From Verrucomicrobiia bacterium (lineage in GTDB: Bacteria; Verrucomicrobiota; Verrucomicrobiia; Verrucomicrobiales; DEV007), in NCBI GenBank assembly GCA_030425385.1, contig JAUIAH010000019.1:1-64000 (forward strand): a stretch of DNA of 64,000 nucleotides, in the 5' to 3' direction. Position 1 is the first letter of the stretch; each line of letters begins with the position of its first letter. This document shows, piece by piece, positions 5,863 to 34,199 of the stretch. A program made the position numbers and the translations under genes. The notes beneath the pieces were generated by a model, which saw only the letters and a list, made by a program, of their open reading frames with translations, was not told the origin of the DNA and did no database searches.

Positions 5863-6023
5863 CCCGTGGAGTCACGCAAGCGATCCCCAGCTGTGACCAA
5901 GAAAGTTGCAGAAAGTGCGCTGCCCAGGTTGCCGCCTTATAATCACATCAAGGCAAATTGCACGATCAGTTTCTATTGACCATTACTCGGCCGGATGCTG
6001 TGCTCTGCCAGATTCGCGAGTTG

Positions 6024-6632
6024 ATGCCCCCCCATTCCAATCATAGCGACGAGTCCCACGCCCGTATAGCCATGCTATTGGATCGTGTGGCCAATGAACG
6101 CGATGAATCAGCGTTTCTGGAACTTTATCGAGAACTTTCAGGCATTGTCTTCGCGACTGTTTATAGCATTCTCAAAGATGCAAGCGAGGCGGAGGATGTC
6201 CTTCAAGAATGCTTCGTGACTGTGTGGAATCGTGCGGCCCAATATGATCAAGAGACAGGGAAGGCCGTCAGTTGGATCCTCTGTATTGCTCGAAACCGGG
6301 CCTTTGACTACCACGCGCGCGATCGCAAACGGAAACGGGCGGCTCATGCGGTGTCCGACTTCAAGGGAAAACACGATGACGCCCGCGCCGAGCGTGTCGA
6401 TGCCTTTGAAACATTGGTTTCGAAAGAAACCGCCAAAGCCATTCGCGAAGCGCTAGAGCGCTTACCCAGCGATCAACATGATGCCATTCGTCTCGCATTC
6501 CTTGAGGGATTGACCCAATCAGAGATCGCTGAACACACAAATCATCCTTTAGGCACCATCAAAGCGCGCATTCGCCGCGGACTCCTCGCCATGCGCCAAA
6601 GCCTTAATCGATTGAAAGATCGCGATGCCTAG
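6024..6632 (+). CDS. ECF-type RNA polymerase sigma factor
   Basis: Directs RNA polymerase to a small set of stress promoters. With the ATG at 6024 it has 202 residues; a TTG at 5958 in the same frame would add 22 poorly conserved residues, so I prefer the ATG. Sigma region 2 is at about 20-90 (ASEAEDVLQECFVTVWNRA, then WILCIARNRAFDYHARDRKR). Region 4 is at about 135-195 (LERLPSDQHDAIRLAFLEG, then TQSEIAEHTNHPLGTIKARI). Its end overlaps the start of the cupin protein at 6625, an arrangement typical of a sigma factor and its inhibitor. The family is certain; the signal sensed is not visible. Confidence 0.9.
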   Translation: MPPHSNHSDESHARIAMLLDRVANERDESAFLELYRELSGIVFATVYSILKDASEAEDVLQECFVTVWNRAAQYDQETGKAVSWILCIARNRAFDYHARDRKRKRAAHAVSDFKGKHDDARAERVDAFETLVSKETAKAIREALERLPSDQHDAIRLAFLEGLTQSEIAEHTNHPLGTIKARIRRGLLAMRQSLNRLKDRDA

Positions 6633-7263
6633 TGCCATGGATCCGGAACGCCTCCACGATCTCGTCATCCAGAATGCCACCATTGGCTTGGAAGAAGCGG
6701 ATCGGAACGCCTATGCGGCATGGTTGGCAGAGGCATCGCCTGCAGAGAAAGAAGAGGTTGCTGAATGGTACGACGCGCTTGCCGCAGTCACTCTTGCCAT
6801 GCCGAATCGCGACGGTGTGAGATGCTTTGATCAGCAAAGACGCCACCGGGTACGCGCACGATTACTTAATCATCTTTATGCCGAAACAGCAGACACGAGA
6901 AACTGGCGTTCACTGCCTATACACGGAGCATCCATGAATGAAATCGCCTATTCGCGCCAGCGGGAGACAGTCGCCTTTCTCCTCAAACTGCAGGCAGACA
7001 CCCGCTTTCCTAGTCATAGTCACCGGGGGAGCGAAGAAACCGTCATTCTGCAAGGAACCCTACAGGTGAATGATCAATTTCTTCAAGAAGGCGACTATTT
7101 GAGGGTCGACGAGAACACTGACCATCGGGACATCTATTCGAAAGAAGGCTGTCTTGCCCTCGTCATCACCCATAAACGCAATTACCCACGCATTCGCATA
7201 CGCGCCTATGATTTCGCCTATCGTGGCTGGCAGAGGATGCGGCGGATCATTCGCCCTTCGTAA
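6625..7263 (+). CDS. ChrR-like cupin anti-sigma factor
   Basis: A cytoplasmic 212-residue protein that probably binds and restrains the sigma factor encoded just upstream. Its ATG overlaps the sigma stop by eight bases, so the two are translationally coupled. The C-terminal half is a cupin barrel: FPSHSHRGSEETVILQG supplies the His/His/Glu metal ligands, and a later GDYLRV...DHRD segment gives a fourth His. In ChrR an N-terminal domain holds zinc with His and Cys residues and binds sigma; here the N-terminal 90 residues are helical but lack a CxxC pair, so zinc sensing there seems lost or different. No membrane segment. The 3' end overlaps the convergent gene by 17 bp. Confidence 0.75.
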   Translation: MPSAMDPERLHDLVIQNATIGLEEADRNAYAAWLAEASPAEKEEVAEWYDALAAVTLAMPNRDGVRCFDQQRRHRVRARLLNHLYAETADTRNWRSLPIHGASMNEIAYSRQRETVAFLLKLQADTRFPSHSHRGSEETVILQGTLQVNDQFLQEGDYLRVDENTDHRDIYSKEGCLALVITHKRNYPRIRIRAYDFAYRGWQRMRRIIRPS

Positions 7264-8219: not shown

Positions 8220-8897
8220 TCAGGCGCGCTTCCGTCTGAGAAGCGTGAGCGAGCCGAGCACCAGCAGAAGACCGGTCGAGGGTTCGGGAATGGTCGTTTC
8301 TCGGGTGAAACCAGAAATAGTGAAGGAGGAATCCGGCGCAAGCGACTCCATTTCAAACGTGACCCCATCGACCGAAGTAAGGTCAAATGTCGGGATCGCG
8401 TTGGTCACCTCACTGTAGAGGAAGGCATAGTCACCTGAGTTGCTGACGTTAAGATCAGAAAAGGCAAACGTGTCCGGCCCACTATTGAGCGAAAGTTTCA
8501 GGGAACCGGAGCCGCCCACCACGTCGACAGCAAAGACGAGAGAATCCCAGCCGGTACCCCCCACGAAATCAGCGTTCAAGCTTCCGGCGCTCGACGCATT
8601 GCCATAACCGAACCAGTAAGTACCCATGCCTCCCGCGTTGTCCGTCAACTGGAGGGGGCCGCCAGCACTCAGGCTCGCGCTCACGGACCCCGTCGCGCTC
8701 CCGAAGTTCGCGGTTTCATAGGAGCGGAAGGCTCCGAGAATATTGGTCGGCGCTCCCTGGACTTCTCCGACATCGCCCAGCGCTGCGGTGCTGCTAAAGA
8801 CACCGTCCGTGAAGACGTCCACGGCGCCAACCGTGCTGGGGAGAAGACAAGTGGCGAAGAATGCGGGAAGCGATGCCCAGCGAGAGAAGTATTTCAT
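8220..8897 (-). CDS. PEP-CTERM exported protein, paralogue A
   Basis: A 225-residue exported protein starting at ATG 8897; an upstream in-frame ATG at 8954 would spoil the signal peptide. The signal peptide is about 1-26 (ending VGA). The mature part is rich in Gly, Ser, Asn and Asp and predicted beta. It ends in a classic sorting tag: TIPEPSTG, a hydrophobic helix and the basic end RRKRA. In other bacteria this tag is processed by exosortase, and no exosortase is in this window. It is clearly homologous along its whole length to the protein at 13726-14421: both contain GDVGEV, NILG(A/G)FRSYE, GGPLQL, YWFGYGN and LNSGPDTF. Function unknown. Confidence 0.88.
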   Translation of the reverse strand: MKYFSRWASLPAFFATCLLPSTVGAVDVFTDGVFSSTAALGDVGEVQGAPTNILGAFRSYETANFGSATGSVSASLSAGGPLQLTDNAGGMGTYWFGYGNASSAGSLNADFVGGTGWDSLVFAVDVVGGSGSLKLSLNSGPDTFAFSDLNVSNSGDYAFLYSEVTNAIPTFDLTSVDGVTFEMESLAPDSSFTISGFTRETTIPEPSTGLLLVLGSLTLLRRKRA

Positions 8898-8950
8898 GAG
8901 TTTTCGAGTTTGGAATAAGGGAGGATCAGAACGCCTCTGAAGAAGTGAAC

Positions 8951-8973
8951 GCATCCGCTCAGGGATCGGATGC
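8951..8973. other. Small inverted repeat upstream of PEP-CTERM A
   Basis: A 7-bp inverted repeat (GCATCCG...CGGATGC) lies in the 270-bp gap between the PEP-CTERM gene and the TPR gene. It is about 55 bp upstream of the PEP-CTERM start and could be a leader hairpin or an operator. The rest of this gap shows nothing I can name. Confidence 0.25.
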
Positions 8974-13725: not shown

Positions 13726-14421
13726 CTAGTGGCGACGGCGGCGGAGGATGCCTGCGGTCAACAGCAATGCCGAGATCACACCCGTGGTGGGCTCTGGAAC
13801 GGGTGTAGCGACGGTGATTCTGCTGAAATCAGAAACATCGAATGCGGCATTGGGTGCATTCGAGGTGATTTCAAGATTGGCGCCATCCACGGATTGGAAA
13901 TCGAATCCGGGAATATTATCCAAGAGATCACTGTAAAGGAACTGGTAGGTACCAGGGGCGCTCACTGATAGATCGGAGAACGTGAATGTATCAGGACCGC
14001 TGTTTAACGTAAGGATCACGGTGCCACTTTCGACAACCGTGTCGAATGTCAGACCAATTGCATTCCAACCTCCAGGATTGACGAAATCTGCATTGAGATC
14101 ACCTGCGGAGGACTCGTTGCCGTAGCCGAACCAATACTGGCCCTGAGCGCCGTCGAGATCACGCAGCTGCAGCGGACCGCCACTTGCCAAACTGGCATTT
14201 ATAGTTCCATCAAGGGTGAGATTGGCGGCTTCATAACTTCTAAAGCCTCCCAAGATATTGGCGGGATCACCCATCACCTCACCGACGTCGCCAAGATTCG
14301 ATGAATGCGTGAATGCACCATCAACATAGTAGTCGATGTGATTTGCGAGGGCCAATGTGGGAAGGGTGAGTGAGGTGACACCAATCAGTAATCGGTGTGT
14401 GAGACAAATAGGATTCTTCAT
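13726..14421 (-). CDS. PEP-CTERM exported protein, paralogue B
   Basis: A 231-residue exported protein starting at ATG 14421; an earlier in-frame ATG at 14457 gives a worse signal peptide. The signal peptide ends near ALA-N. The C-terminus carries VPEPTTG, a hydrophobic helix and RRRRH. It is a full-length paralogue of the protein at 8220-8897. The two copies point the same way and enclose the TPR, DUF4331 and EF-hand genes, so they may arise from a duplication within this cluster. Function unknown; probably secreted and anchored or released by an exosortase encoded elsewhere. Confidence 0.87.
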   Translation of the reverse strand: MKNPICLTHRLLIGVTSLTLPTLALANHIDYYVDGAFTHSSNLGDVGEVMGDPANILGGFRSYEAANLTLDGTINASLASGGPLQLRDLDGAQGQYWFGYGNESSAGDLNADFVNPGGWNAIGLTFDTVVESGTVILTLNSGPDTFTFSDLSVSAPGTYQFLYSDLLDNIPGFDFQSVDGANLEITSNAPNAAFDVSDFSRITVATPVPEPTTGVISALLLTAGILRRRRH

Positions 14422-14548
14422 AATGATGAGTGGAATGCCCATGGAAATCGATTCCATGACAGTTGTTACAGAAAGCAGACTCTGCTCAGACGGGAATGGA
14501 TGCCTTTTTCCGAAATTATTGTTTCTACGAGATCATCTGAGCGACATC

Positions 14549-14561
14549 TTGCAAAGTGCAC
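14549..14561. promoter_or_regulatory. TTGCA-N3-TGCAC palindrome (operator-like site)
   Basis: One of six sites of the form TTGCA-N3-TGCA(A/C/T) found in intergenic DNA of this window. It lies between the PEP-CTERM B gene and the uncharacterised gene at 14724, 163 bp before the latter. I see no good -24/-12 element beside this copy. Possible target: either neighbour. Confidence 0.4.
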
Positions 14562-14723: not shown

Positions 14724-15503
14724 ATGTGCGCGGATCAACACGAATCCTCACTCCTCACCATGGTATCCCCCCTCCCTGCCCCTCCACTCACATCACCGTT
14801 GAATCGCCTTGAATCCGTCCGTTTCCGTTTCTCGTTAGACACCCTCAAGGTCATGGAAGTAACCGGGAGCGCTCAGGCCCTTGCCAGCTGGACGGTCGAG
14901 ACGCCTAAGACCCTTGTTTCCCAGCCATTGCCCGCCATCCTGGACGAGACTTCCGGAGACCAACTCTTCGACGCGCTTCACCGGCTAGAGTACGCGTCTC
15001 CTGTTTCTCTGTTAGCATTGAAATTTCGGAGAGACTCTGCCAAAGCCCCCAGCACGCACGCTCACGTTCAATTCAGCCGCAAGGGAGGCGCCTGGCTTGA
15101 CATCGCGACCCCCTTGCCGTGGCGAGTCACGCGTTTCAAGCAACGGCTTCTGGATGGGCATGAGTGTTGGGACGATCGCAGCATCGCTCGGCTTCTATCC
15201 CGTGCGCTCGGAGCCGAGGCCATCGTCCTGGCCGATCGCCATGGGCCCGTCCTCCACGGGAAGTCATCGTTCGACGTCGTCCGTGACCACCTAAGGGCGA
15301 TCGGTAATGGCGCCTTTGATAGTCCCCAGCTGCTTCAGGATCTCGAGAATGACCTTCACCTTCTCATGGCGCCTCTCTCTGAGCGCCATGAGGCCTTCCT
15401 GCTAGGCTATTCTCGTAAACCTTGGAGCGAGCAAGCAATGGCTATCGCCTTTGACGCCAATATGGCTTTGAAGCAGGTGCAGGCGCGCAGGCAGCGCGGC
15501 TAA
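14724..15503 (+). CDS. Uncharacterised cytoplasmic protein, weakly PAS-like
   Basis: A 259-residue protein I do not recognise. The first 30 residues are Pro-rich; an ATG at 14760 is an equally possible start. Residues about 30-125 have the look of a degenerate PAS fold (RFRFSLDTLKVMEVTG and later HAHVQFSRKGGAWLDI). The C-terminal half is helical, with no catalytic motif. No signal peptide or membrane helix. It is convergent with the sigma-54 activator gene (18-bp gap) and has an operator-like palindrome at 14549, so it may be part of the same circuit, perhaps a sensory or adaptor protein. That link is speculative. Confidence 0.65.
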   Translation: MCADQHESSLLTMVSPLPAPPLTSPLNRLESVRFRFSLDTLKVMEVTGSAQALASWTVETPKTLVSQPLPAILDETSGDQLFDALHRLEYASPVSLLALKFRRDSAKAPSTHAHVQFSRKGGAWLDIATPLPWRVTRFKQRLLDGHECWDDRSIARLLSRALGAEAIVLADRHGPVLHGKSSFDVVRDHLRAIGNGAFDSPQLLQDLENDLHLLMAPLSERHEAFLLGYSRKPWSEQAMAIAFDANMALKQVQARRQRG

Positions 15504-15521: not shown

Positions 15522-16874
15522 CTACCCCATGCCAAACTTCTTCCGCTTGCGGTAGAGAGTGGCCTGGTCAATCCCAAGGGTCTCCGCAGCGATGGTCAAG
15601 TTTTCCGAACGACTCACCACACGAATGATGTGCTCCCTCTCCAAGTCTTCGAGTGAGACATTGGCACCAACCTGGATGTTGCTGTCGGAGCCGTTGGTCA
15701 CGCTCTGATCGCCTCCGTGGGGAGACGGCAAATCGCTGGGACCGATCTCTTTGCCTTTTGCTAGGATGACAGCGCGTTCAATGACATTGCGCAGTTCGCG
15801 AAGATTTCCCGGCCAATCGTAGTTCTGAATGACGTCCCATGCTTGCTCCGAATACCCTTGGAGTGGTCGGCCAAACTGCTTGGTAAAGAAGTCCACGTAT
15901 GATTGCGCAAAGTGCACCAAATCCTTTGGGCGCGCGCGGAGAGGTGGCATGTGGACGGCGATCACATTCAGACGATAATATAGGTCCTCGCGAAACGTGC
16001 CCTCCTCGACGAGTTGCTTGAGGTCTTTGTTCGTGGCCGCAATGATCCTCACATTCGCCTTACGTGTCTTGGTATCTCCCACCCGCTCATACTCACGCTC
16101 TTGCAAGAGCCGCAGGAGCTTGGGTTGAATCTCCATGGGAAGCTCGCCGATCTCATCGAGGAAGAGCGTTCCGCCCTCAGCCGCTTTCACTTTCCCCACC
16201 TTGTCCGCTACCGCCCCGGTGAACGCCCCTTTCACATGACCAAAGAGTTCACTTTCGAGGAGCTCCTTTGAAAGACTGGGACAACTCACGGTGATGAGAG
16301 GCTTCTTCTTGAACTGGCTCCGCTCGTGGACAGCCTTCGCGACAACACTTTTGCCCGTACCACTTTCCCCAAGGATGAGCACGGTCGCTGGCGTGTCGGC
16401 CGCACGGAACAGGACTTCATAGGTGTCGCGGACCGCCGGGTCTTCTGACGCGAATTCCAGGGTAGGCGATTCTCGAGACACCACCGTCTCAAGCTCCTCG
16501 ATCTTGGTCTCCATCTGAGACATCTTGCGAACCCGCGCCAGCACCGCTCGCAATTGCTCAGGGCTGAAAGGTTTCTCTAACAAATCGATTGCCCCTAACT
16601 GAATGGCCTTGACCGCCACTTGCACGGAACCGTGCGCCGTGAACATCACGACAGGGATCTTCGGGTGCCGTTTGCGAATAGCTTCCAGCACTTGCAAGCC
16701 ATCTTCATCGCCCAGCTGCACATCTAGGATCACAAGATCCCACTGGTCTTCTTTCAGCTTGGTAAGGGCGACCGTGGCGTTGGTCGCCGTCTCCGCGTAA
16801 TGGTCCTCCGCCTCGATCGCCACCACCGTCGCCTCACGAATGCTTTTCTCGTCATCAACTACTAGGATATCCAT
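15522..16874 (-). CDS. NtrC-family sigma-54-dependent response regulator
   Basis: A 450-residue transcription activator. Receiver domain about 1-118, with acidic pocket VVDDE and phospho-acceptor D51 in VILDVQL. AAA+ domain about 145-385: Walker A GESGTGKS, the sigma-54-contact loop GAFTGA and Walker B LFLDEIGELP. C-terminal Fis-type helix-turn-helix ends at LGIDQATLYRKRKKFGM. All residues needed for ATP-driven opening of sigma-54 promoters are present. No histidine kinase is adjacent; two kinases without DNA-binding outputs lie at 27.6-31.2 kb and are candidate partners. The divergent envelope operon begins 344 bp away, with a pair of palindromes between them. Likely controller of several genes here (inferred). 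Confidence 0.93.
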   Translation of the reverse strand: MDILVVDDEKSIREATVVAIEAEDHYAETATNATVALTKLKEDQWDLVILDVQLGDEDGLQVLEAIRKRHPKIPVVMFTAHGSVQVAVKAIQLGAIDLLEKPFSPEQLRAVLARVRKMSQMETKIEELETVVSRESPTLEFASEDPAVRDTYEVLFRAADTPATVLILGESGTGKSVVAKAVHERSQFKKKPLITVSCPSLSKELLESELFGHVKGAFTGAVADKVGKVKAAEGGTLFLDEIGELPMEIQPKLLRLLQEREYERVGDTKTRKANVRIIAATNKDLKQLVEEGTFREDLYYRLNVIAVHMPPLRARPKDLVHFAQSYVDFFTKQFGRPLQGYSEQAWDVIQNYDWPGNLRELRNVIERAVILAKGKEIGPSDLPSPHGGDQSVTNGSDSNIQVGANVSLEDLEREHIIRVVSRSENLTIAAETLGIDQATLYRKRKKFGMG

Positions 16875-16970
16875 ACGATGTTTGGAGCGCTAGACTCATA
16901 CCAAGGGCTCAACCTCTGCTAACCGACTGATGTTCATGGCTTTACGTGTTTGGCACCCAAGGCTAGATGT

Positions 16971-16983
16971 TTGCAACATGCAA
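16971..16983. promoter_or_regulatory. TTGCA-ACA-TGCAA palindrome, site 1 of pair
   Basis: A perfect 5+5 bp palindrome, about 100 bp upstream of the sigma-54 activator start and 248 bp before the BON gene. Its centre is 30 bp (three helical turns) from site 2. NtrC-type activators commonly bind such paired, in-phase dimer sites as enhancers, so I infer an enhancer for this regulator. Confidence 0.55.
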
Positions 16984-17000
16984 GATCTCTTTGTCTGACA

Positions 17001-17013
17001 TTGCATGTTGCAC
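17001..17013. promoter_or_regulatory. TTGCA-TGT-TGCAC palindrome, site 2 of pair
   Basis: A 9-of-10 match to the same palindrome as site 1. Together 16972-16983 and 17001-17012 are also an exact 12-bp inverted repeat with a 17-bp spacer, so a hairpin in RNA is an alternative reading. Confidence 0.55.
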
Positions 17014-17190
17014 TATCTATGACGGCCTCATTCTGCATGGCAAGAGGCACCTCGTGAGTGATCGCCATGCATTTCGCGCCTCCTTGAAAGGTTTCGCCAT
17101 GCGTTCTGCAAGAGGTCGATTCGCATCAGGAGCATCATCAGATGTCCTATGCCTTTCTTCTTCAGTCACTTAGGAGACCTGCCACCTGGC

Positions 17191-17206
17191 TGGCACATCG
17201 ATAGCT
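17191..17206 (+). promoter_or_regulatory. Possible sigma-54 (-24/-12) element, BON operon
   Basis: TGGCAC-N5-TAGCT keeps the -24 GG and -12 GC at the right spacing. The start of transcription would fall about 2 bp before the ATG at 17219, leaving almost no leader, so it is either a leaderless promoter or a coincidence. Confidence 0.35.
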
Positions 17207-17218
17207 GCGAAGGATGGC

Positions 17219-18709
17219 ATGAAGAAATATCCAACCCTCCAAAGAATCACTGCCATTCCAATCGCGCTTTCCCTTCTGTCCTGTCCCGCTCTTGCCACGG
17301 TGTGGACCGACAGCGACATCGAACAAGCGGTGAAGCGCCGCGTCGCTTGGGAGCTGGCCCCTGGCAATGGCCTCAAGGTTGTGTGCAAAGACGGGATGGT
17401 GACCTTGCGTGGACATGTCACGAATCTCTTGCAGAAACAGCGGGCTGAGCGCATCGCCGGGTCCCGCAAAGGCGTCCGATCGGTCATCAACCAGGTCATC
17501 ATCGATGCTGGACCAATCGAAGATGCTCAAATCACCGCGTCCGCGAATGAGGCCCTCTCAGACGAGCCCGTCTTCGCGAGCCAGAACATCAACGCCTCCA
17601 CCGCTGGTGGCGTGGTGACGTTGTCAGGATCGGTCGATCACATCGATCTCAAACGCCTTGTGGAACACACGGTCGCCCCCATCATCGGTGTCCGCGGTAT
17701 CAATAATGCCCTCACCATCGACCAGGGAGACGTCACCCGCGCCGACGATGAGATCAAGTCTCACATTGAGCGACGTTTTCGCGCAGACGTTTGGCTCAAT
17801 GACTTCTTCATCGAGGTGAGCGTTGATCAGGGTCACGTGATCCTCAGTGGCACAGCCGGCACGGTCGAGCAATTGAGACGCGCCGTGGGAAAAGCGATGG
17901 TTCCCGGCGTGCACTCGGTCGCCTCCGACAAGGTCGTGATCGATGCTCGTTTCAAAGACACGTCCCGCCGCGCGGAAGAACGCCCCAAACTAAGCGACTC
18001 TGAGATGGTAGATGCGATCAAGGATGCCCTGATGCACCACGGGTGGATCGTTGGTTCTGACATTGACGTAACCGTGAGCGATCGCGTCGCCACGCTGCGC
18101 GGACAGGTAAGCTCATTGCGCATCAAGACGGCTGCCCGACGGACAGCGCAGAACACCGTTGGGATCGCGCGGGTGAATGATTTCATCACCGTGGGGTCGA
18201 CGGAGATCACCATCTCCGATGACCTCATCCAGAACCGTGTGCAACGGAACCTCAAACGCAATTTCTACACCGCGCGCTACCCAATCGCCGTCGAAGTCGA
18301 CGAGGGCACGGTCACCCTCACCGGACAGGTGGAGACGCCCTTTGAGCGCAACCAGGCCACCATTGCCGCGTCGACTACCTACGGCGTTCGCGACGTCGCC
18401 ACTGAGATCGAGACCAATCGCCTGCTTCGCGGCTATCGTTCCTCGGATCTCGACACCCTCACAGACACGCAACAGCCTTCGCCAGCCCAGGCGCTCCCCA
18501 TCCCTGACGCGCAGATCAAGGAAGATGTGGAAAGCGAACTCTTCTGGAGTTGGTGGGTGGACAGCGACGCTATCACCGTTCAGGTGGCCGACGGCGAGGT
18601 GACATTGTCAGGCACCGTCGATAGTCCTCGCGAACTGCGCGTCGCCGTGGCGAATGCCTTTGATGGCGGTGCACGCACCGTCGTCAACAACCTTTCGATC
18701 ACTCAATAA
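17219..18709 (+). CDS. Periplasmic protein with six BON domains
   Basis: A 496-residue exported protein: signal peptide about 1-26 (ending PALA), then six tandem BON domains at roughly 30-97, 100-167, 172-245, 262-331, 333-406 and 432-496. Each carries the pattern of a conserved Gly-x-Val with V-T-L-x-G, for example GMVTLRGHV, GVVTLSGSV, GHVILSGTA, RVATLRGQV, GTVTLTGQV and GEVTLSGTV. BON domains occur in osmotic-shock proteins such as OsmY and are thought to bind membranes or lipids. Typical OsmY has two, so six is long. It heads an operon with MscS, a cardiolipin synthase-like enzyme and other membrane proteins, fitting a role in envelope or osmotic stress. Confidence 0.92.
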   Translation: MKKYPTLQRITAIPIALSLLSCPALATVWTDSDIEQAVKRRVAWELAPGNGLKVVCKDGMVTLRGHVTNLLQKQRAERIAGSRKGVRSVINQVIIDAGPIEDAQITASANEALSDEPVFASQNINASTAGGVVTLSGSVDHIDLKRLVEHTVAPIIGVRGINNALTIDQGDVTRADDEIKSHIERRFRADVWLNDFFIEVSVDQGHVILSGTAGTVEQLRRAVGKAMVPGVHSVASDKVVIDARFKDTSRRAEERPKLSDSEMVDAIKDALMHHGWIVGSDIDVTVSDRVATLRGQVSSLRIKTAARRTAQNTVGIARVNDFITVGSTEITISDDLIQNRVQRNLKRNFYTARYPIAVEVDEGTVTLTGQVETPFERNQATIAASTTYGVRDVATEIETNRLLRGYRSSDLDTLTDTQQPSPAQALPIPDAQIKEDVESELFWSWWVDSDAITVQVADGEVTLSGTVDSPRELRVAVANAFDGGARTVVNNLSITQ

Positions 18710-19316: not shown

Positions 19317-20225
19317 ATGCTAACATTCACCTTTGCTCAAACCGAGGGAGCTCCGACTTCCGTCACTGAAGTCAGGCAAACCCTGCAGGAGATCTTGCTT
19401 CAAACCTGGACCGATTTCATCGAGCACCTGCCTTTCATTGGAGTCGCTGTGGGCGTCCTCCTGGAAACCTGGGCCGTCTCGAAGCTGGCGCATGTCATTG
19501 CCGACAAGAGCCTCGGGAAGACGCACATGCGACGGTCCTTGCAAGACTTGGCCCTCCGGCTCATCGCCATTGCGGTCTGGGTGATCGGCATTCTTCTGGC
19601 TGCCATTGTCATCTTTCCCGGCGTGAGTCCTGCCAAAGCGTTAGGAGGTCTCGGCATCATTTCGATGGCGGTGGGATTCGCCTTCAAAGATATCTTTGAG
19701 AACTTCTTTGCCGGGATTCTCCTCCTCTGGCGGTTCCCTTTTGAGAATGGCGATTTCATTGAATGCGGAGACGTGAAGGGCAAAGTGGAGCGCATTGACA
19801 TACGCATGAGCCAGATTCGACAGACGACGGGAGAACTCGTCGTAGTGCCTAACGCCTACCTCTTCAAGAATCCCGTCGATGTCCTGACTGACCAACCAAA
19901 GCGTCGCGTGACCGTGATGGCAGGCGTTTCCTATGACACCGACGTGGATCAAGCCGTCGAGGTGATCGATGGGACACTCAAGTCCTGCTCCACGGTTGAT
20001 CAGGACCGACCCATTCAGGTATTCCCGCAAGCGTTTGGGTCGAGCAGCATCGACATCGAAGTCGCGTGGTGGACAGACCCCACGCCGCTCGACCAACGCC
20101 GATCTCGCGGTGAGGTCGTGTCTGCCATCAAGAAGGCACTCGACCATCACGGAATTGAAATTCCATTTCCTTATCGCACCCTCACCTTCAAGGAACCTCT
20201 CCCTCTGCAGCAAACCGTCAATTAA
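19317..20225 (+). CDS. Small-conductance mechanosensitive channel (MscS family)
   Basis: A 302-residue inner-membrane channel that releases solutes when membrane tension rises. Transmembrane helices are at about 38-58 and 78-102, followed by the pore helix around 105-125 (KALGGLGIISMAVGFAFKD). The cytoplasmic MscS domain follows, with the beta segment FENGDFIECGDVKGKVERID, IRQTTGELVVVPNA and a C-terminal alpha/beta part. E. coli MscS is 286 residues, so the length is normal. It starts 15 bp after the previous gene in the operon. The tension-gating role follows from the family; a partner-specific role with the BON protein is inferred. Confidence 0.92.
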   Translation: MLTFTFAQTEGAPTSVTEVRQTLQEILLQTWTDFIEHLPFIGVAVGVLLETWAVSKLAHVIADKSLGKTHMRRSLQDLALRLIAIAVWVIGILLAAIVIFPGVSPAKALGGLGIISMAVGFAFKDIFENFFAGILLLWRFPFENGDFIECGDVKGKVERIDIRMSQIRQTTGELVVVPNAYLFKNPVDVLTDQPKRRVTVMAGVSYDTDVDQAVEVIDGTLKSCSTVDQDRPIQVFPQAFGSSSIDIEVAWWTDPTPLDQRRSRGEVVSAIKKALDHHGIEIPFPYRTLTFKEPLPLQQTVN

Positions 20226-20244
20226 ACCCCACGATACATCAACC

Positions 20245-21366
20245 ATGCTGGAAGAAACACAAGTCCCAGGCAACGCCGTCACGCTCTTACAGAATGGCGA
20301 CGAGATCTTCCCGGCGATGCTTGAGGCTATCCGGGAGGCCAAGCATTCGATCTGCTTCGAGACCTATGTGTATTGGTCAGGAGACATCGCGATTGCCTTT
20401 GCAGAAGCCCTTGAGGAAGCCGCCAAGCGCGGGGTGACCGTCCTCGTGATCCTGGATTGGTATGGCAGCATGAAGATGAAGCGCGGCTTGTTCGACGAGA
20501 TGAAGGAGGCGGGCGTTCAAGTCGAATACTTTCGTCCGCTGCGGTGGTTCAACTTCCGTCGTGCCAATCACCGCACGCATCGCAAGCTCCTCATCGCGGA
20601 TGGACGCATCGGCTTCACCGGCGGCGTAGGTGTAGCCGACGAGTGGACGGGCAATGCTCAGGACAAGGATCACTGGCGTGACAATCACTACCGATTCGAA
20701 GGGCCCATTGTGAAGTCCATGCAGACGATCTTCTTCGCAAACTGGTCTGCCTGTGGCCACGATCCCCCGTCAAGTGATGACCCTCACTTTTTCCCAGAAC
20801 TTGAACCCGCCGGCGATGTGACCACCGCCTCGTTCTTCAGTTCTCCTCTCCATGATGACCATGGTATCCTGAACCTTTTCGAATCGGCCATCACACAAGC
20901 AAGGACTCGCTTATGGATCGCCTCCGCCTATTTCATGCCGGGCGAAGGCCTTGTCGCCAAGCTCAAGGAAGCCAGACAACGTGGTGTTTCCGTAAGGGTC
21001 CTCATGAGTGGGAAGCACATCGATCAAGATGTGGTCAGGCAAGCATCCCGTTACTTTTGGGGAGAATTGTTAGAAGCTGGGATCGACCTCTACGAATACG
21101 AGCCCACCCTCATGCACGTCAAGATGCTCATCGTGGACGATGCCTGGGTCTCGGTAGGCTCAGCAAACTTTGACGCACGCTCGTGTCGCCTCAACGATGA
21201 AGCGGTCATCAATCTCTATGGCGCCGACGCGACCGCCGAGCACGCCGACATCTTTGAGAAAGATCTCCAACGGGCCCGCAAGATCGAGATGGAAACGTGG
21301 CGCCAACGCCCTCTGTGGACGAAGCTGACAGATGCCTTTGCGAGCCTTTTCCGAAGGCAACTCTAA
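20245..21366 (+). CDS. Phospholipase D-family cardiolipin synthase-like enzyme
   Basis: A 373-residue enzyme with two HKD motifs: H112xK114x4D119 in THRKLLIADG and a second at MHVKMLIVDD near residue 295. Cardiolipin synthases of this superfamily (ClsA/B type) join two phosphatidylglycerols, or use phosphatidylethanolamine, through a phosphohistidine intermediate. The lack of N-terminal membrane helices and the length near 370 favour a ClsB-like enzyme. The ATG at 20245 follows the MscS stop by 19 bp. Placement with mechanosensitive and BON genes suggests membrane remodelling under stress. A different phosphatidyl transfer cannot be excluded. Confidence 0.87.
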   Translation: MLEETQVPGNAVTLLQNGDEIFPAMLEAIREAKHSICFETYVYWSGDIAIAFAEALEEAAKRGVTVLVILDWYGSMKMKRGLFDEMKEAGVQVEYFRPLRWFNFRRANHRTHRKLLIADGRIGFTGGVGVADEWTGNAQDKDHWRDNHYRFEGPIVKSMQTIFFANWSACGHDPPSSDDPHFFPELEPAGDVTTASFFSSPLHDDHGILNLFESAITQARTRLWIASAYFMPGEGLVAKLKEARQRGVSVRVLMSGKHIDQDVVRQASRYFWGELLEAGIDLYEYEPTLMHVKMLIVDDAWVSVGSANFDARSCRLNDEAVINLYGADATAEHADIFEKDLQRARKIEMETWRQRPLWTKLTDAFASLFRRQL

Positions 21367-21383
21367 CCGTTCTCCATCTCGCC

Positions 21384-22703
21384 ATGCGCACTCGGATCAC
21401 CCTCTTTCTTGGCTATCTCCGCACCAGCTTCTGGGGGATCCCTGGTGGCTTGGTCATTCTCGCGATCGTCGCCGCCTTCAGCTTCGTGGAGATCGATCAA
21501 CGGCACGCCTCCGAAGCTTTGGAAATAGCCCCTTGGCTTGCGAATATCTCTGCTGAAGGCACAGCGTCACTCCTCGGAACCGTGGCGACCTCCGTGTTGA
21601 CCCTGGCAGGCGTGACCTTCTCAGGGACGTTAGTGGCGCTTACATTAGCCTCATCTCAATTCGGCCCACGCCTCCTGCGAAACTTCAGGCGCTCCCGACT
21701 GACGCAGATCACCCTCGGCATCCTCTTGGCCACATACGCTTATGCCCTCATCGTCATGCGAAACGTGCGGATGGGTGAGGAGACATTCGTGCCCCATCTG
21801 GCAGCGCTCATCGCCTTCATTCTCACTCTCCTTAGTCTCACCCTCTTCATCCTCTTCATCCACTCGGTCATCCAATCGATCCAGGCTGAGAATGTGGTCG
21901 CCGAAGTCCACGCGGAGTTGGAACGGTCAATCGATCACTTCTTTGGAGAGGAGAATGCACCCGACGACCAAGACGACGAAGAGCGTGCCCGACAGAAAGC
22001 TTCTTGGGAAGAGGCAGAGAACGAATCGTGTCTGCACAGTTCCCGGTGCGGTTACCTGCAAGGGATTGACATGCCTAGCTTAGTCGCGGCTGCGAAGACG
22101 CATGACCTGAAGATCCGTGTCCTTTGCAACCCGGGACACTACATTGTCCGAGGACAAGCGCTTGCGGCATGGAGAGCGAAGGATCTATCTGATGAGCACC
22201 TGACAAAACTACGAAATCACTTTGTCTTGGGCAGCATGCGAACCGCCGAGCAAGATCTCGAATACTGCATCCGGCAGTTGGTCGAGGTGGCCCTCAGAGC
22301 GTTGTCTCCAGGTGTGAACGATCCGTTCACGGCCATGAACTGCATCGATCATCTTGGAGGGGCGATGGTGAGCATCACGCAGAAGCGCCTACCAGCGCAT
22401 CATCATCATGATGCCGACGGCACCGATCGCGTTCACACGCCTCCAGCCACTTATGCCGGCTTTCTCGGATCGGCCTTTGACCAGATCCGCCAAGCCGCTG
22501 CCGGAAAGCCAGATGTGACCATGCGCATTCTGGAGACACTCTATCAGATCGGCCAACAGTGCCGCACCCACGTCCAGTTTCGAGCCGTCCAGGAACAGGC
22601 TCGTTTAACCCTCGAGATGCTTGATCGCGATGGACTCGCCGACGCCGATGCCGAGGAGATCGACGCACGCTACGCGAAGGTGCGAAATCTCAACCAACCC
22701 TGA
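21384..22703 (+). CDS. DUF2254 membrane protein
   Basis: A 439-residue inner-membrane protein starting at ATG 21384, 17 bp after the previous gene. Four membrane segments are seen: about 14-34, 60-82, 100-120 and 130-152. They are followed by a soluble domain. The segments TLAGVTFSGTLVALTLASSQFGPRL and RALSPGVNDPFTA are hallmarks of DUF2254; only parts are quoted here as recognised motifs TLAGVTFSGTLVAL and ALSPGVNDPFTA. A His-rich insertion (AHHHHDADG) lies near residue 340. No biochemical function is established. It sits inside the envelope operon and its stop is one base before the next ATG. Confidence 0.85.
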   Translation: MRTRITLFLGYLRTSFWGIPGGLVILAIVAAFSFVEIDQRHASEALEIAPWLANISAEGTASLLGTVATSVLTLAGVTFSGTLVALTLASSQFGPRLLRNFRRSRLTQITLGILLATYAYALIVMRNVRMGEETFVPHLAALIAFILTLLSLTLFILFIHSVIQSIQAENVVAEVHAELERSIDHFFGEENAPDDQDDEERARQKASWEEAENESCLHSSRCGYLQGIDMPSLVAAAKTHDLKIRVLCNPGHYIVRGQALAAWRAKDLSDEHLTKLRNHFVLGSMRTAEQDLEYCIRQLVEVALRALSPGVNDPFTAMNCIDHLGGAMVSITQKRLPAHHHHDADGTDRVHTPPATYAGFLGSAFDQIRQAAAGKPDVTMRILETLYQIGQQCRTHVQFRAVQEQARLTLEMLDRDGLADADAEEIDARYAKVRNLNQP

Positions 22704-22704
22704 C

Positions 22705-23763
22705 ATGACCTCCACGCATGACCGTCATCCTATCTCCGCCCCTGTGCGAGCTGTCTTCCTCGTGGCGGGGCTGATTCTACTCTGGCACTTGCGCGAAATT
22801 CTCCTCCTGCTCTTCGGCGGCATCCTCGTTGGCGTGGTGATCAAGCAGCTCAAGCACCGCTTGCAAGACCTCACGCACTGGCCTCATCTCGTGTGTTTGC
22901 TCGCCGTCCTCTTCGGACTGATCGCCATCCTCGCGGGGATGGGATTCCTCATCGCTCCCCCTCTCATCTCACAAAGCCGCGAACTGATTGAGTCCGCCCC
23001 GACAATCTGGAAGCGCGTCCAAGAACAGCTGAGCGCAGCGACGTGGCTGCAGACCTGGTGGGAGCAGAATCACGATCAGGTATCGGACTCTGTTTCTAAG
23101 AGCACGCCAAAGGGTTTCTCCTGGGTGGTTGGGGCTCTGGGAAACATGCTTAGTTCCTCAATCGGCTTTGTCACTGGAATCGTGGTGGTGTTAGGCATCG
23201 GATTCTACCTCGCCGTGGAACCACGCCTCTACATCTCAGGAATGGTCCGATTGGTACCTCAACGCTGGGACAGTCGCGTTCGCGATGCGCTCACACGCTC
23301 TGGCAATGCGATTAGCGGCTGGATGTTAGGACAGCTCGGTTCGGTGACCGTGGTGGCGGTTTGCGTGACCGTTGGCCTGTGGATGCTAGGCGTTCCCCAT
23401 TCCCTTGCGCTCGGTGTCCTGGCGGGCGTCCTCGCATTCATTCCAAATCTCGGCCCGATTGCCGCCTTCATTCCAGCCGTCATCGTGGCCTTCGCCGAGA
23501 GACCGATGCTCGCCGTGTGGACCGCCGTGCTTTACGTTTCCATCCAGTTGGTAGAGAACAATTTCCTCACTCCGATGCTGCAGCGCCGGATCATCGCGAT
23601 GCCTCCCGCGTTGATGTTAGCCTTCCAAGTGATCAGTGCCGCCCTCGCGGGCCTTGCCGGCATCCTTGTGGCAGCGCCTCTCCTGGCGGTCATCATGACA
23701 CTCATCCAATGTCTCTACGTCGAAGGCGTCCTCGGAAAGGAATCGCCCAATGATTGTGAATGA
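22705..23763 (+). CDS. AI-2E/PerM-family transporter-like membrane protein
   Basis: A 352-residue polytopic protein of the AI-2E family (PerM, YdiK, TqsA). Membrane helices are at about 15-33, 36-55, 65-88, 150-175, 205-235, 240-270, 275-290 and 305-335. Typical family motifs are ISGWMLGQLGSV, FIPNLGPIAAFIPA and QLVENNFLTPML. Members export small molecules such as AI-2 or act as Na+/H+ antiporters; the substrate cannot be told here. It is the last gene of the operon and its stop is 14 bp from the end of the convergent MscS-like gene. I see no terminator hairpin between them. Confidence 0.88.
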   Translation: MTSTHDRHPISAPVRAVFLVAGLILLWHLREILLLLFGGILVGVVIKQLKHRLQDLTHWPHLVCLLAVLFGLIAILAGMGFLIAPPLISQSRELIESAPTIWKRVQEQLSAATWLQTWWEQNHDQVSDSVSKSTPKGFSWVVGALGNMLSSSIGFVTGIVVVLGIGFYLAVEPRLYISGMVRLVPQRWDSRVRDALTRSGNAISGWMLGQLGSVTVVAVCVTVGLWMLGVPHSLALGVLAGVLAFIPNLGPIAAFIPAVIVAFAERPMLAVWTAVLYVSIQLVENNFLTPMLQRRIIAMPPALMLAFQVISAALAGLAGILVAAPLLAVIMTLIQCLYVEGVLGKESPNDCE

Positions 23764-23776
23764 ACACAGTCGCGAA

Positions 23777-25453
23777 TCATGGTCGACTGGTTGCAGTCTC
23801 AATGTCCTGCGAACGCTTGTGATGGACGGTCATCTGGGTGAAGGGAATTTCCCAACCATTCTCATTGCACGCATCTACGGAAATGCGCTGCAAGGCCCGC
23901 GATAGCATCTCGTATTTGGAAGCCACTGCACCGTCGATGTCCGCAATGATCTCGTAATCTAACGATGATGCACCCGCTTGCTTGAACTCCACTTTGATAT
24001 CGATGATGTGTTCTCGATCAATCACCTTCACGAGCTCCGTCATCAGCTTCTTCCACAATTTCGAAGGCACTTCCGTGGTCGCGATCGCTTGATATTGGTA
24101 GTCGATACCAAAGACGCTCTTCAGACGAAAGTTCGCCGACAAATTCTTGGGGCTTAGGGAAAGAAAGTCTGCGGTGGGATAGGACACTTTGGTTCCTCCT
24201 AACAAGACAAGATGCACCATCTCTGGCGTCTGTGTGAGGACTCGGCCACGCGTATCATCGCTGAGCAGGACCCAGTCGCCGGCGCGACAAGGAAACCAGA
24301 GTTCTCCCTCCGCGATTGGACGGGAGATCAGATTGCCTAACTGCCGTAGCGGCAAACGCACCAGTCCGCCGGTGAGTTCGGGGTTCGTTAGGGTCGTATA
24401 GAAGCTGAGACGTTCAACTTTCCATGGGATCCCATCAAAGATCAGCCGCTCGCCTTCCCGCACCTCCCCAAGATTGAGAACGAGACGTGCCTGCTCAAGA
24501 AACCGTGGGAGCGCATTCTTCGCAGCCAGGACAAGGCCAGCAATCATGATGATGGCCAGGCCCATCAGCACCCAATCGCCGCTCGCATAGAGCACAATCA
24601 TTGCTGAAGCGAGTGCACCCACAAAGGTGAAGACATGGAACGCCACATGAAGCAAGCGCGCGGCGAACGGCGTCCGCTCCTTTCGTTTGGCCACCGGCCC
24701 CACGCGCTCGACGTAGCGCTGGAGAAAGCGCAAGAGAAAGAACACCCCAAAGAAAGTCGTGATCGTCAGAAACAGATTGCGGCCACGCGAGCGAAAGAAC
24801 GCGGTGAGAGCCGACGTGCCCGCATCAAACACGGACTGTTGCTTCGCCTCCATATCATCGAGTTGGTGCCGCAGGACCGAGAGCCGATTGCGCGCGTCGG
24901 AGGCACGCCCCTCCCACTCCTCCTGCAAGGCCATCAACCGTGCACGGGTAGCATCCACCTGAATGCTAGGCTCGATTTCCTGTATCTTTGAAAGGGCCTC
25001 ATTAGCCGTCGCTAGGCGGCGTTCCTCTGTCCGGACCGCATTGCGCAGCTCTTCAATCACGCGGGGCTGCTCCGTGACATCCTTCAACTCTCGAACGATC
25101 GGTTCCAGCAGCTCATTCAATTCCTTGGCGAGGTCAAAGCGGTGCCCTTCCGAGTTCTCAAACTCAGTCAGCTCGATCCCCGTCGCGACACTTGAGAAGT
25201 CGTTGATCAGTTTCCGACGTTTCTCGCGCAAGGCTTGCAAGTCCTCGTACAGCGATGACCGCTCGGCTTCCGTCGAGGCGTCATCCAGCGCTTGCCGTTG
25301 GGAGGCGATGTCCACATCCACCGAGACAAGCGATTCTGCCAGCGATCCCAGCGTGAGCACTTCGTTAGCATTCTCAACCCGTCCCCCCAGCTGAGCCCAT
25401 AGGATACCGGATGAGAACACGATTGCGACGATCGTCCATGCGAGGGTCTTCAT
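23777..25453 (-). CDS. MscS-like channel with long periplasmic coiled coil
   Basis: A 558-residue protein starting at ATG 25453, which gives a signal peptide (MKTLAWTIVAIVFSSGILWA). Residues about 25-205 form a long, heptad-rich periplasmic coiled coil. Transmembrane helices lie at about 214-232 and 255-310. A degenerate MscS domain follows, with a beta region near GERLIFDGIPWKVERLSF. The overall plan resembles the large MscK/YbdG-like members, but the pore helix is divergent. It converges on the envelope operon and so extends the mechanosensitive theme. A -24/-12-like element lies just upstream of its start. Confidence 0.8.
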   Translation of the reverse strand: MKTLAWTIVAIVFSSGILWAQLGGRVENANEVLTLGSLAESLVSVDVDIASQRQALDDASTEAERSSLYEDLQALREKRRKLINDFSSVATGIELTEFENSEGHRFDLAKELNELLEPIVRELKDVTEQPRVIEELRNAVRTEERRLATANEALSKIQEIEPSIQVDATRARLMALQEEWEGRASDARNRLSVLRHQLDDMEAKQQSVFDAGTSALTAFFRSRGRNLFLTITTFFGVFFLLRFLQRYVERVGPVAKRKERTPFAARLLHVAFHVFTFVGALASAMIVLYASGDWVLMGLAIIMIAGLVLAAKNALPRFLEQARLVLNLGEVREGERLIFDGIPWKVERLSFYTTLTNPELTGGLVRLPLRQLGNLISRPIAEGELWFPCRAGDWVLLSDDTRGRVLTQTPEMVHLVLLGGTKVSYPTADFLSLSPKNLSANFRLKSVFGIDYQYQAIATTEVPSKLWKKLMTELVKVIDREHIIDIKVEFKQAGASSLDYEIIADIDGAVASKYEMLSRALQRISVDACNENGWEIPFTQMTVHHKRSQDIETATSRP

Positions 25454-25465
25454 AGCCTTTATCCA

Positions 25466-25481
25466 CGCACGGTGCGTGCCA
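25466..25481 (-). promoter_or_regulatory. Possible sigma-54 (-24/-12) element, MscS-like gene
   Basis: On the minus strand, TGGCAC-GCACC-GTGCG has a perfect -24 box and the -12 GC at correct spacing. As with the BON gene, the predicted start of transcription is about 2 bp from the ATG. No TTGCA palindrome was found upstream, so support is weaker. Confidence 0.3.
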
Positions 25482-25673
25482 GGATCCGTATCCCCGGAAA
25501 CTGCGGGCCAATCCTCCCCTCCACCCCTTTCAATCAGGCAAATTGCATGCCTTTCCCAGAGAAATACGGGCGCTTTGCAAGACACCCAACGCCTCGCGCG
25601 CGCGCAAACCCCTGATTCTCTAGGCTCTGCGGCCTCCCTAACATGCGGCACGTTTCTCGCTGATGTCGCGGTC

Positions 25674-26738
25674 ATGAAACGTCTACAACATGCGATTCTC
25701 TTCTCTATTGGTTCCCTCTGTGCCGCGCAGGCCACCGACTCGCCCACGGAGGCGATTCAGAATATCGCCCCCGCCCTCTCGCCACGCTACAACGATGGCT
25801 ACCTGAGCTTCTACTTCGATAACGATCTCTTCGGAGGCACCGATGAGAACTACACCAACGGCGCTCGACTAACATGGATCTCGAAAAGCCGTGAACTCGA
25901 AGAGCTGCCTGGACTCTATCGGAGCTTAGATTGGCTTTTGCAACAAGGCGATCGCCGTGGTGGCGAGCCCTGGCTCTATAACATTGGTATCTCCCTCACT
26001 CAATTGATGTTCACGCCAGAGGATGTGCTCGCGACCACACTAATCGAAGACGATCGCCCCTATGCAGGCTGGCTCGGCCTTGGTTTCTCCCTCCATGCAA
26101 AGACCGCCGAGGACTTGCACTCATTGGAATTGAGCCTTGGTGTGGTAGGGCCTGCTTCTCTGGCAGAGAACGCCCAAGACTCGATTCACTCCCTACGAGA
26201 CATTGATAAATCGCAGGGGTGGGATCACCAATTGGAGAATGAATTCACCTTTAATCTCCATTATCGCTACACGCGGCAATGGTTCGAAGCCTCAGCGTTC
26301 CAGGATCGCCTTGAAATGGATGGTCTGTATCGTGTCGGCTTCGATCTCGGGAATGCCTGGATCAATGCGAATGCAGCGACCTATTTCCGCGCTGGATGGA
26401 ATCTTCCAACGGGGTTCACCGATCCCTCACTAAGCCCAACGGCCTACACGCAGCAACTATTCGTGGAACGCCGTGAGCGACTCAATCCGTGGAGCCTCTA
26501 TGTCACCGTCGGCGCCGAAGGCCGCATTGTCGGCCGCGATATCTTCCTCGACGGCAATACGTTCGAAGACTCTCCAAGTGTGGACAAGCGCCACTTTGTT
26601 GGCGATCTCGTCGGAGCGGTGACCCTACGCTACAAGCAGTTCAACATGAGTTACGCCCACACCTATCGTACGGAAGAACACGCCGGGCAAGATGGCGGGC
26701 AGATCTTTGGCTCTTTCAACATCGGCGTTTCGTTCTAA
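25674..26738 (+). CDS. lpxR: LpxR-like lipid A deacylase (DUF2219)
   Basis: A 354-residue outer-membrane beta-barrel protein. The ATG at 25674 gives a signal peptide (MKRLQHAILFSIGSLCAAQA). The LpxR signature is present near residues 47-70: YFDNDLFGGTDENYTNGARL contains the Asn/Asp and Thr positions of the active site. Family hallmarks DRPYAGWLG and a C-terminal strand ending in Phe (FNIGVSF) also fit an outer-membrane barrel. LpxR removes the 3'-acyloxyacyl chain of lipid A and needs calcium in Salmonella. Length (LpxR about 320) is slightly long. A terminator follows. The gene is divergent from the MscS-like gene. Confidence 0.85.
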   Translation: MKRLQHAILFSIGSLCAAQATDSPTEAIQNIAPALSPRYNDGYLSFYFDNDLFGGTDENYTNGARLTWISKSRELEELPGLYRSLDWLLQQGDRRGGEPWLYNIGISLTQLMFTPEDVLATTLIEDDRPYAGWLGLGFSLHAKTAEDLHSLELSLGVVGPASLAENAQDSIHSLRDIDKSQGWDHQLENEFTFNLHYRYTRQWFEASAFQDRLEMDGLYRVGFDLGNAWINANAATYFRAGWNLPTGFTDPSLSPTAYTQQLFVERRERLNPWSLYVTVGAEGRIVGRDIFLDGNTFEDSPSVDKRHFVGDLVGAVTLRYKQFNMSYAHTYRTEEHAGQDGGQIFGSFNIGVSF

Positions 26739-26993: not shown

Positions 26994-27431
26994 TCAGGCG
27001 GCTACGCTCATTTGATCCACCCACTCGATGTGGTTATCGATGCGGGGTAGAAGCTCGTCCCGTATCATGCTTTTGCAGTTAGGCATCACTTCATCGTCCG
27101 AAAGGGCATCTTCATAGGACCGCTTTCCGTGCTCTTCTCCTTGTTTGAGAGAAGCCAGGGCTGAATTCTCTCCGAAGAGGTTGGCAGCTCCTTGAACTGC
27201 CGTGGCGAAGGCGCCCCAGGCACCTGAATCCGTATCCGGCGTTCCACCCATCGCGATGATGTTCTGCGTCAAGCGCTCAGCGCTTGCTTCGTGGTCGCGT
27301 CGAATACTGACCAATAATGGCACTTCTCCTTCATTCGAAAACTTATCGATGGCCTGTCGGTAAGTTTCAACGGCCGAGAGTTCGCCACGAAGGAGACTAT
27401 TACATACTTTAATACAATGTTCGCTATTCAT
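26994..27431 (-). CDS. DUF2383 four-helix-bundle stress protein
   Basis: A 145-residue soluble protein of the DUF2383 (PA2169-like) family, predicted ferritin-like four-helix bundle. Recognisable parts are CNSLLRGELSAVETYRQAID, SIRRDHEASAERL and the C-terminal helix around SMIRDELLPRIDNHIEWVD, with Glu/His residues placed as in diiron bundles. Function is not established; relatives are induced in stress and spore-associated settings. ATG 27431 is preferred over an upstream start at 27500 because the extra residues are not conserved. It has the best sigma-54-type promoter of the window (27476-27491) and a TTGCA palindrome further upstream. A terminator follows. Confidence 0.85.
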   Translation of the reverse strand: MNSEHCIKVCNSLLRGELSAVETYRQAIDKFSNEGEVPLLVSIRRDHEASAERLTQNIIAMGGTPDTDSGAWGAFATAVQGAANLFGENSALASLKQGEEHGKRSYEDALSDDEVMPNCKSMIRDELLPRIDNHIEWVDQMSVAA

Positions 27432-27475
27432 AATGAGGTGTCCTGGTTGATTTGTTTCAGGTTCACCCCTTTCAA

Positions 27476-27491
27476 TGCAAGCGTGATGCCA
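27476..27491 (-). promoter_or_regulatory. Sigma-54 promoter (-24/-12), DUF2383 gene
   Basis: On the minus strand TGGCAT-CACGC-TTGCA differs from the sigma-54 consensus by a single base. The predicted transcription start near 27465 leaves a 34-base leader before ATG 27431. The palindrome at 27591-27603 lies about 107 bp upstream, a normal enhancer distance. Confidence 0.65.
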
Positions 27492-27590
27492 GCCCCGCAA
27501 CGAACCGCTAACTCACTGGCATCCAACACCTTACACTCTACCATGCTTTTCTAGCATCATGACCGTCACGTTCATCGTGCATGGTAGCGA

Positions 27591-27603
27591 TTGCACCATG
27601 CAT
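27591..27603. promoter_or_regulatory. TTGCA-CCA-TGCAT palindrome, upstream of DUF2383 gene
   Basis: A 9-of-10 match to the operator-like palindrome. A weaker copy, GTTCA-TCG-TGCAT, lies 21 bp away (27570-27582). The site also sits inside a second 8-bp inverted repeat, TGCATGGT...ACCATGCA (27579-27603). Confidence 0.5.
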
Positions 27604-34179: not shown

Positions 34180-34199
34180 GTTCATGGCCTCCTCGACTA

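Follow-up and report, generated by a model that had tools for sequence, protein, structure and literature searches.

Two palindromic boxes that lie between the gene for an NtrC-type response regulator and a run of envelope genes are, in our judgment, very likely an upstream activating sequence for that neighboring regulator, within what looks like a sigma-54-dependent stress regulon. They were analyzed in a 64,000-nucleotide stretch of DNA, which we call the window, in the 8.0-Mb genome that contains it, and in 288 genomes of the order.

A pair of palindromic boxes in a divergent intergenic region

The initial annotation described two palindromes between the NtrC-type gene and the envelope run, and both are present at the coordinates it named (Table 1). 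Their centers are 30 bp apart, as it had stated, and so are their starts; its equation of this distance with three helical turns is only approximate, as at 10.5 bp per turn it amounts to 2.86 turns. The exact 12-bp inverted repeat that the two boxes were said to form also proved correct (arms 16972-16983 and 17001-17012, 100% complementary, with a spacer of 17 nt). Given that this repeat is retained in just 2 of 7 ortholog pairs, we take the palindromes, and not a hairpin, to be what matters, and the exact repeat to be largely a by-product of having two of them.

Six copies of the core TGCANNNTGCA are present in the window, where 1.65 would be expected, and not one of 100 shuffles yields as many. 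Counting the 13-mer with one mismatch gives weak evidence (6 in the window versus 2.4 expected, with 3 of 100 shuffles getting to 6), and as a genome-wide probe it was rejected as too loose, with 155 places compared to 87 in the backwards control. The genome has three exact 13-mers, and neither of the two outside the window is in a stretch with a visible box and promoter unit. When two cores are sought together (TGCANNNTGCA-N10..40-TGCANNNTGCA), the focal pair is the single place in the genome, and a stricter pair pattern likewise recovers this place alone.

To describe spacing, we surveyed 138 boxes picked by a regulator or sigma-54 criterion and defined a second box as one with at least 6 of the 8 core bases. 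Second boxes cluster at 20-23 and 29-33 bp, near two and three helical turns, where about 1 is expected per distance, with additional peaks at 14 and 37 bp. The counts depend on one another, as both members of a pair are counted and orthologous promoters recur. A test for 10.5-bp periodicity is weak (R 0.17), perhaps due to half-sites that recur every 7 bp and blur the signal. Within the window, partners are found at 21 bp (box 27592), 30 bp (the focal pair), 32 bp (17068/17100 and 25537/25569) and 33 bp (box 32142); the boxes at 34317 and 14550 lack one in the 20-33 bp range. The box at 25537-25547, which has 7 of the 8 core bases, sits between a family-less ORF (23777-25747) and an LpxR-type outer membrane protein, with sigma-54-like sites on both sides.

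The genes of the envelope run encode, in order, a six-BON-domain protein, an unknown, MscS, PLD, DUF2254 and AI-2E proteins. To the right follow DUF2383, a REC-histidine kinase, a GAF-PAS hybrid kinase, Hsp20, glutamate dehydrogenase and a Dps-type ferritin (all by Pfam). Farther left in the window are a phage-type integrase at its start (103-1293), an ECF-type sigma factor adjoining a ChrR-cupin type protein, likely an anti-sigma factor, beside a subtilase gene (5958-7263), and, after these, a PEP-CTERM protein (8220-8954).

Table 1. Features of the window that bear on the box pair, in order of position.
Feature	Position	Strand	Remarks
Sixth core box	14550-14560		Between 13726-14457 (-) and 14724-15503 (+)
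NtrC-type response regulator (REC, sigma-54 AAA+, Fis HTH)	15522-16874	-	Pfam Response_reg, Sigma54_activat, HTH_8; presumed box binder
Sigma-54-like -24/-12 site of the regulator, TGGTATGAGTCTAGCG	16888-16903	-	Score 8.8; reached by 0 of 20 shuffles
Box 1, TTGCAACATGCAA	16971-16983		Matrix score 17.7; itself among the 55 sites that built the matrix
Box 2, TTGCATGTTGCAC	17001-17013		Matrix score 19.3, the window maximum; itself among the 55 sites that built the matrix
Degenerate box, BON side	17068-17078		6 of 8 core bases; overlaps a direct repeat
Degenerate box	17100-17110		7 of 8 core bases; 32 bp from the 17068 box, 80 bp from the BON sigma-54 site
Sigma-54 -24/-12 site of the BON operon, TGGCACATCGATAGCT	17191-17206	+	Score 14.4
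Protein with six BON (OsmY-like) domains	17219-18709	+	First gene of the envelope run; Pfam BON E 1.9e-77, 6 stretches
MscS channel, PLD (cardiolipin-synthase-like), DUF2254 and AI-2E transporter genes	19317-23763	+	Same envelope run; Pfam
Sigma-54 site of the DUF2383 (PA2169-type) gene 26994-27500, TGGCATCACGCTTGC	27477-27491	-	Score 14.9
Box before the DUF2383 gene	27592-27602		Second box (7 of 8) 21 bp off at 27571
REC-HisKA-HATPase kinase	27629-28729	-	Likely partner of the regulator; Pfam
GAF-PAS-HisKA-HATPase-REC hybrid kinase	28726-31182	-	Possible sensor, a role suggested by position only; Pfam
Box before the glutamate dehydrogenase gene	32142-32152		Weak second box (6 of 8) 33 bp off at 32109
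Sigma-54 site of the glutamate dehydrogenase gene 32321-33577, TGGCACCGGATCTGC	32242-32256	+	Score 14.4
Sigma-54 site of the Dps-type gene 33700-34251, TGGCATGACGCGTGC	34201-34215	-	Score 14.3
Box before the Dps-type ferritin gene	34317-34327		No second box at 12-60 bp

The regulator, its likely kinase and predicted sigma-54 promoters

By its REC domain, its AAA+ domain with a GAFTGA loop and its Fis-type HTH, the regulator belongs to the sigma-54 activator (bEBP) response regulators; "gaftga" is visible in its alignment to NtrC-type structures. Its orthologs are 52-66% identical, and in most of them the HTH ends in GID-xATLYRKR (a LYRKR-like motif is found in 71 of 77). An ortholog (E up to 1e-140) is present in 63 of the 288 genomes, and as these genomes are larger than the others, counts of boxes and units are inflated in them. 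Named orthologs are all from Verrucomicrobiota (Haloferula, Akkermansiaceae, Cerasicoccus, Pelagicoccus and MAGs), with a best-segment identity of 49-62% that falls to 43% in other phyla, a pattern that probably puts the genome in or near Verrucomicrobiales. The same-genus relatives (G001-G003) have no ortholog at E 1e-140 and hence offer no comparison for loss of spacing. A paralog encoded in the same genome (contig C55), 48% identical to the regulator, has no core box in the surrounding 6.5 kb.

For comparative analysis, we assembled 77 distinct ortholog loci (above 470 bits) and 82 other NtrC-type loci (up to 420 bits). An unbiased motif search covered all 4-mers combined with their own reverse complement, at gaps of 0-14, in the region from -300 to -40 of the 77 ortholog genes. 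TGCA-N3-TGCA was the top-ranked gapped palindrome, present in 34 of the 77 upstream regions and absent from 120 kb of background. Between -200 and -100 there are 40 cores at the ortholog loci versus 0 at 80 other NtrC-type loci; the core box is likewise missing from 103 kb of ortholog coding sequence and from the 1 kb that precedes each of about 80 other NtrC-type genes. The consensus of 55 sites, both window boxes included, is aTTGCAwwwTGCAAt; the centers of the window boxes, ACA and TGT, are each one base off the WWW, and box 2 ends in C. No exact core is present from -350 to -60 in 42 of the 77 orthologs, and a box in this region precedes 33 of the 52 orthologs without a kinase gene directly upstream versus 2 of the 25 that have one there.

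Such a kinase gene identifies a likely partner for the regulator. Homologs of the REC-histidine kinase (at least 250 aa aligned) are found at 32 of the 77 ortholog loci, the window included, and at 25 of them directly upstream of the regulator, compared to 0 of the 82 other NtrC-type loci; in the window, the kinase gene is about 11 kb from the regulator gene. Response-regulator domains are frequent in control ORFs near orthologs (14 of 66), as are CHASE3 domains (4 of 66), and these ORFs are possible further input parts.

Presence of the regulator also goes together with presence of box pairs. Outside tandem repeats, pairs occur in 26 of the 63 genomes with an ortholog versus 6 of the 225 without, a count from which 11 tandem-repeat genomes were removed by eye; with all of them kept it is 29 of 63 versus 14 of 225.

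Sigma-54 promoters were scored with an approximate matrix. In the 35 box-bearing ortholog genes, the best score between box and start has a mean of 8.7, compared to 2.1 in base shuffles. The regulator's own site is a moderate match whose -24 element reads TGGTAT, and the closest ortholog has TGGCACAATTCTAGCA at a similar position. A tandem upstream activating sequence consists of two dimer sites near helical phase, about 60-200 bp from a -24/-12 promoter. The focal pair has this layout, with box 1 at 68 bp and box 2 at 98 bp from the regulator's site; the distances to the sigma-54 site of the BON operon are 178 bp (box 2) and 208 bp (box 1). Because the strong pair is nearer the regulator's site, autoregulation is our first reading and control of the BON operon our second. 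On the BON side, the degenerate 17068/17100 pair was equalled in 23 of 20,000 shuffles, in a test designed after the pair was noticed.

The link between regulator and motif that the initial annotation had seen in this region is thus backed by upstream conservation, by co-occurrence over the 288 genomes, by clustered spacing and by sigma-54 sites at enhancer distance. Based on these data, the two boxes very probably bind the neighboring NtrC-type regulator.

Two further observations concern these promoters. A gap of just 10-19 nt in 23 of 77 box and promoter targets (for example, 17191-17219 and 34185-34215), and of 13-19 nt in 19 of the 35 ortholog regulators, the closest ortholog among them, separates the GC of the -12 element from the chosen start codon. 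Given a normal sigma-54 start, such short distances would yield near-leaderless messages; SD-like runs are present in the gap between the -12 GC and the chosen start. In addition, the genome has one rpoN gene. The relatives G057 and G100 each carry a box pair, with a spacing of 24, some 170 bp ahead of rpoN; as this pair overlaps other ORFs or borders on them, its target is uncertain. In these two genomes the activator may boost its own sigma factor.

Box and promoter units precede stress-type genes

We defined a stringent unit as box-N75..105-TGGCAYN6TGC. The 288 genomes contain 92 matches, versus 2 for the pattern read backwards, and these are distributed over 40 of the 63 ortholog genomes (69 matches) and 19 of the 225 others (23 matches). 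Among the latter, G181 probably has a more diverged ortholog (50%), and the other units in genomes without one may reflect chance or another regulator. Six stringent units are in the genome studied here, three of them within the window, which makes up 0.8% of genome length, before the genes for DUF2383, glutamate dehydrogenase and Dps. Of the remaining three, one lies before a PLD gene (C47), one before a small gene that matches no Pfam family (C55) and one before a gene run that includes a holin-X-type membrane protein and an AI-2E transporter (C19). The focal pair falls outside the six because the -24 of the regulator departs from the pattern and the BON site is further off. For the sixth core box, at 14550, there is no good sigma-54 site within 250 bp (none above 3.9).

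To characterize the targets, we scanned 66 proteins from ortholog genomes, out of 83 box and promoter units. Among the 25 of 49 families listed are BON (6), DUF2383 (6), DUF892 (5), fasciclin (3), ferritin (3), DUF883_C (3), glutamate dehydrogenase (2) and PRC (2), and one more target is CsbD; the DUF883_C matches are weak, under the model's curated cutoff where inspected, and one protein may match two families. BON, DUF2383, DUF892, ferritin, DUF883, PRC and CsbD are general-stress families in other bacteria. The targets are rich in such families, and those best represented are of general-stress types. Stress-type matches account for at most about 26 of the 66, the remainder being diverse or family-less, with some ORFs perhaps not genes. 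Among 66 control ORFs there is one DUF2383 protein and no other stress family among the matches listed (25 of 52 families). Box pairs found without the promoter criterion precede, by Pfam, genes for DUF892 (G117), DUF2383 (G113), glycogen-type enzymes (G113, G089), AI-2E fused to GAF (G085, G157) and RpoN (G057, G100). At loci L141 and L143, the protein behind the box pair is a single polypeptide with an AI-2E transporter domain and a C-terminal GAF domain.

The proposed regulon is wider than the envelope genes, and together the box and promoter units look like a sigma-54-dependent stress regulon. BON homologs are found in 6 of 57 genomes, our own included, and in all four relatives with both genes (G011, G025, G030 and G038, all draft assemblies) BON homolog and regulator are on different contigs. 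At two ortholog loci, other genes of the run have homologs close to the regulator, MscS at about 1 kb (L064) and PLD and DUF2254 at 1.4 kb (L066). None of the proteins encoded in the genome scores above the cutoff for RpoS or SigBFG; given three strong sigma-70-type matches, the genome may have another stress sigma factor.

Proposed circuit, alternatives and known systems

We propose that the two boxes are two dimer sites for the regulator. The regulator would be phosphorylated, probably through the REC-histidine kinase, would then occupy both boxes from roughly one side of the helix and assemble, and would activate sigma-54 polymerase at its own promoter (autoregulation) and, aided by the weaker second pair, at the promoter of the BON operon. 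The box and sigma-54 unit would similarly drive the DUF2383, glutamate dehydrogenase and Dps genes in the window and stress-type genes elsewhere. Sequence, enrichment, association with the regulator gene, spacing and sigma-54 matches were computed, and it is from these that we infer binding, phosphorylation, co-operativity, direction of control, signal and expression.

The strong pair could also serve autoregulation only, with the BON operon under the separate weak pair or under something else. The distances favor this, since 68-98 bp separate the strong pair from the regulator promoter, compared to 178-208 bp for the BON sigma-54 site, which has the degenerate pair at 80 bp. We nevertheless consider it rather unlikely. 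Sigma-54 activators can work from 200 bp and in both directions, and BON genes carry their own box and promoter units in several relatives, which makes control of BON by this regulator likely through some site.

That another dimeric transcription factor owns the boxes and controls both divergent genes is quite improbable. The 19 genomes that carry a box and promoter unit without a detected ortholog would fit such a factor, as would the at least three more close NtrC-type proteins of the genome itself. However, box pairs and units track the regulator ortholog over the 288 genomes, the box is concentrated upstream of the regulator gene and missing from the 1 kb before about 80 other NtrC-type genes, and the boxes are at enhancer distance from sigma-54 sites, which require an activator of this kind. 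Even more remote is the idea that the exact 12-bp inverted repeat functions as a hairpin in RNA or DNA (a terminator, an attenuator or a transcript-end structure). The region does fold well on both strands (z -4.4 and -4.3), but 16800-17300 has no terminator-like site, 12000-37000 has no Rfam match at gathering score, and the 3-bp centers are complementary in just 2 of the 7 ortholog pairs, while the palindromes are kept; the arms thus show no compensatory conservation, which speaks against a hairpin.

Returning to the proposed activating sequence, the recurrence of box and promoter before stress-protection genes of relatives suggests an undescribed stress-response circuit. As a broader and tentative proposal, which we rate as possible but somewhat short of probable, large-genome Verrucomicrobiales may mount their general stress response via sigma-54 and one phospho-activated, autoregulated regulator with a LuxO-type box, a REC-kinase relay, an rpoN box pair (G057, G100) and near-leaderless targets, with no dedicated sigma-70-type factor. 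Verrucomicrobiota are common in soil and water. Because the box, the regulator, a likely kinase and a list of targets are now defined, the question of a stress regulon can be tested with few constructs.

The general stress regulons of sigma-S, sigma-B and EcfG include OsmY/BON, CsbD, Dps, DUF892 (YciF), PRC and DUF883 targets, families that overlap with those found here; unlike them, the promoter class here is sigma-54 with an activator box. In the available portion of a 2025 survey of sigma-54 regulons, what is named for its classes is motility, ABC permeases and rpoN itself (PMC12316311). No general stress response or sigma-54 regulon of this kind for Verrucomicrobiota was among the literature matches listed, as judged by titles and the beginnings of abstracts.

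The regulator shares its domain order and sigma-54 activation with NtrC, AtoC and ZraR. As an equivalog of any of these it was rejected, with scores under the cutoff in each case (390.7 of 558.6 bits for NtrC, 393.7 of 714 for AtoC and 334.3 of 760 for ZraR). The site sequences of NtrC and ZraR are different from this box. So is that of AtoC, which binds a 40-bp site with two inverted halves according to the accessible text (PMC3118216). Identity with PrsR (TIGR02915) was also rejected (378.9 bits versus a cutoff of 502.6), and the motif differs too. The PEP-CTERM box is similar in that an activator box, a spacer of about 63 bp and a sigma-54 site go with a matching distribution of an NtrC-type regulator; it has a TTTACA core, and the portion of that report available to us gives the motif in Proteobacteria only and lists no PrsR for Verrucomicrobium spinosum (PMC1569441).

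The closest parallel in the site itself is LuxO, as the consensus aTTGCAwwwTGCAAt equals the published LuxO site. In the part of the Vibrio study at hand, this site is TTGCAWWWTGCAA, before the qrr genes, and the primer names G243T and G277T imply that the V. fischeri sites are 34 bp apart (PMC10162802); a spelling of the motif also occurs in a V. anguillarum paper. Both systems appear to have an NtrC-type response regulator, the same 13-bp palindrome, and two sites upstream of a sigma-54 promoter. In contrast to LuxO, the regulator here scores 368.8 bits against the NCBIfam LuxO cutoff of 800, its targets are stress and envelope proteins, and its likely partner is a REC-histidine kinase. With regard to the Qrr small RNAs that LuxO drives, nothing in 12000-37000 matches Rfam at gathering score. 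The regulator seems to work like LuxO without belonging to the LuxO family, and a distant regulator that uses the LuxO site is relevant to the evolution of activator specificity.
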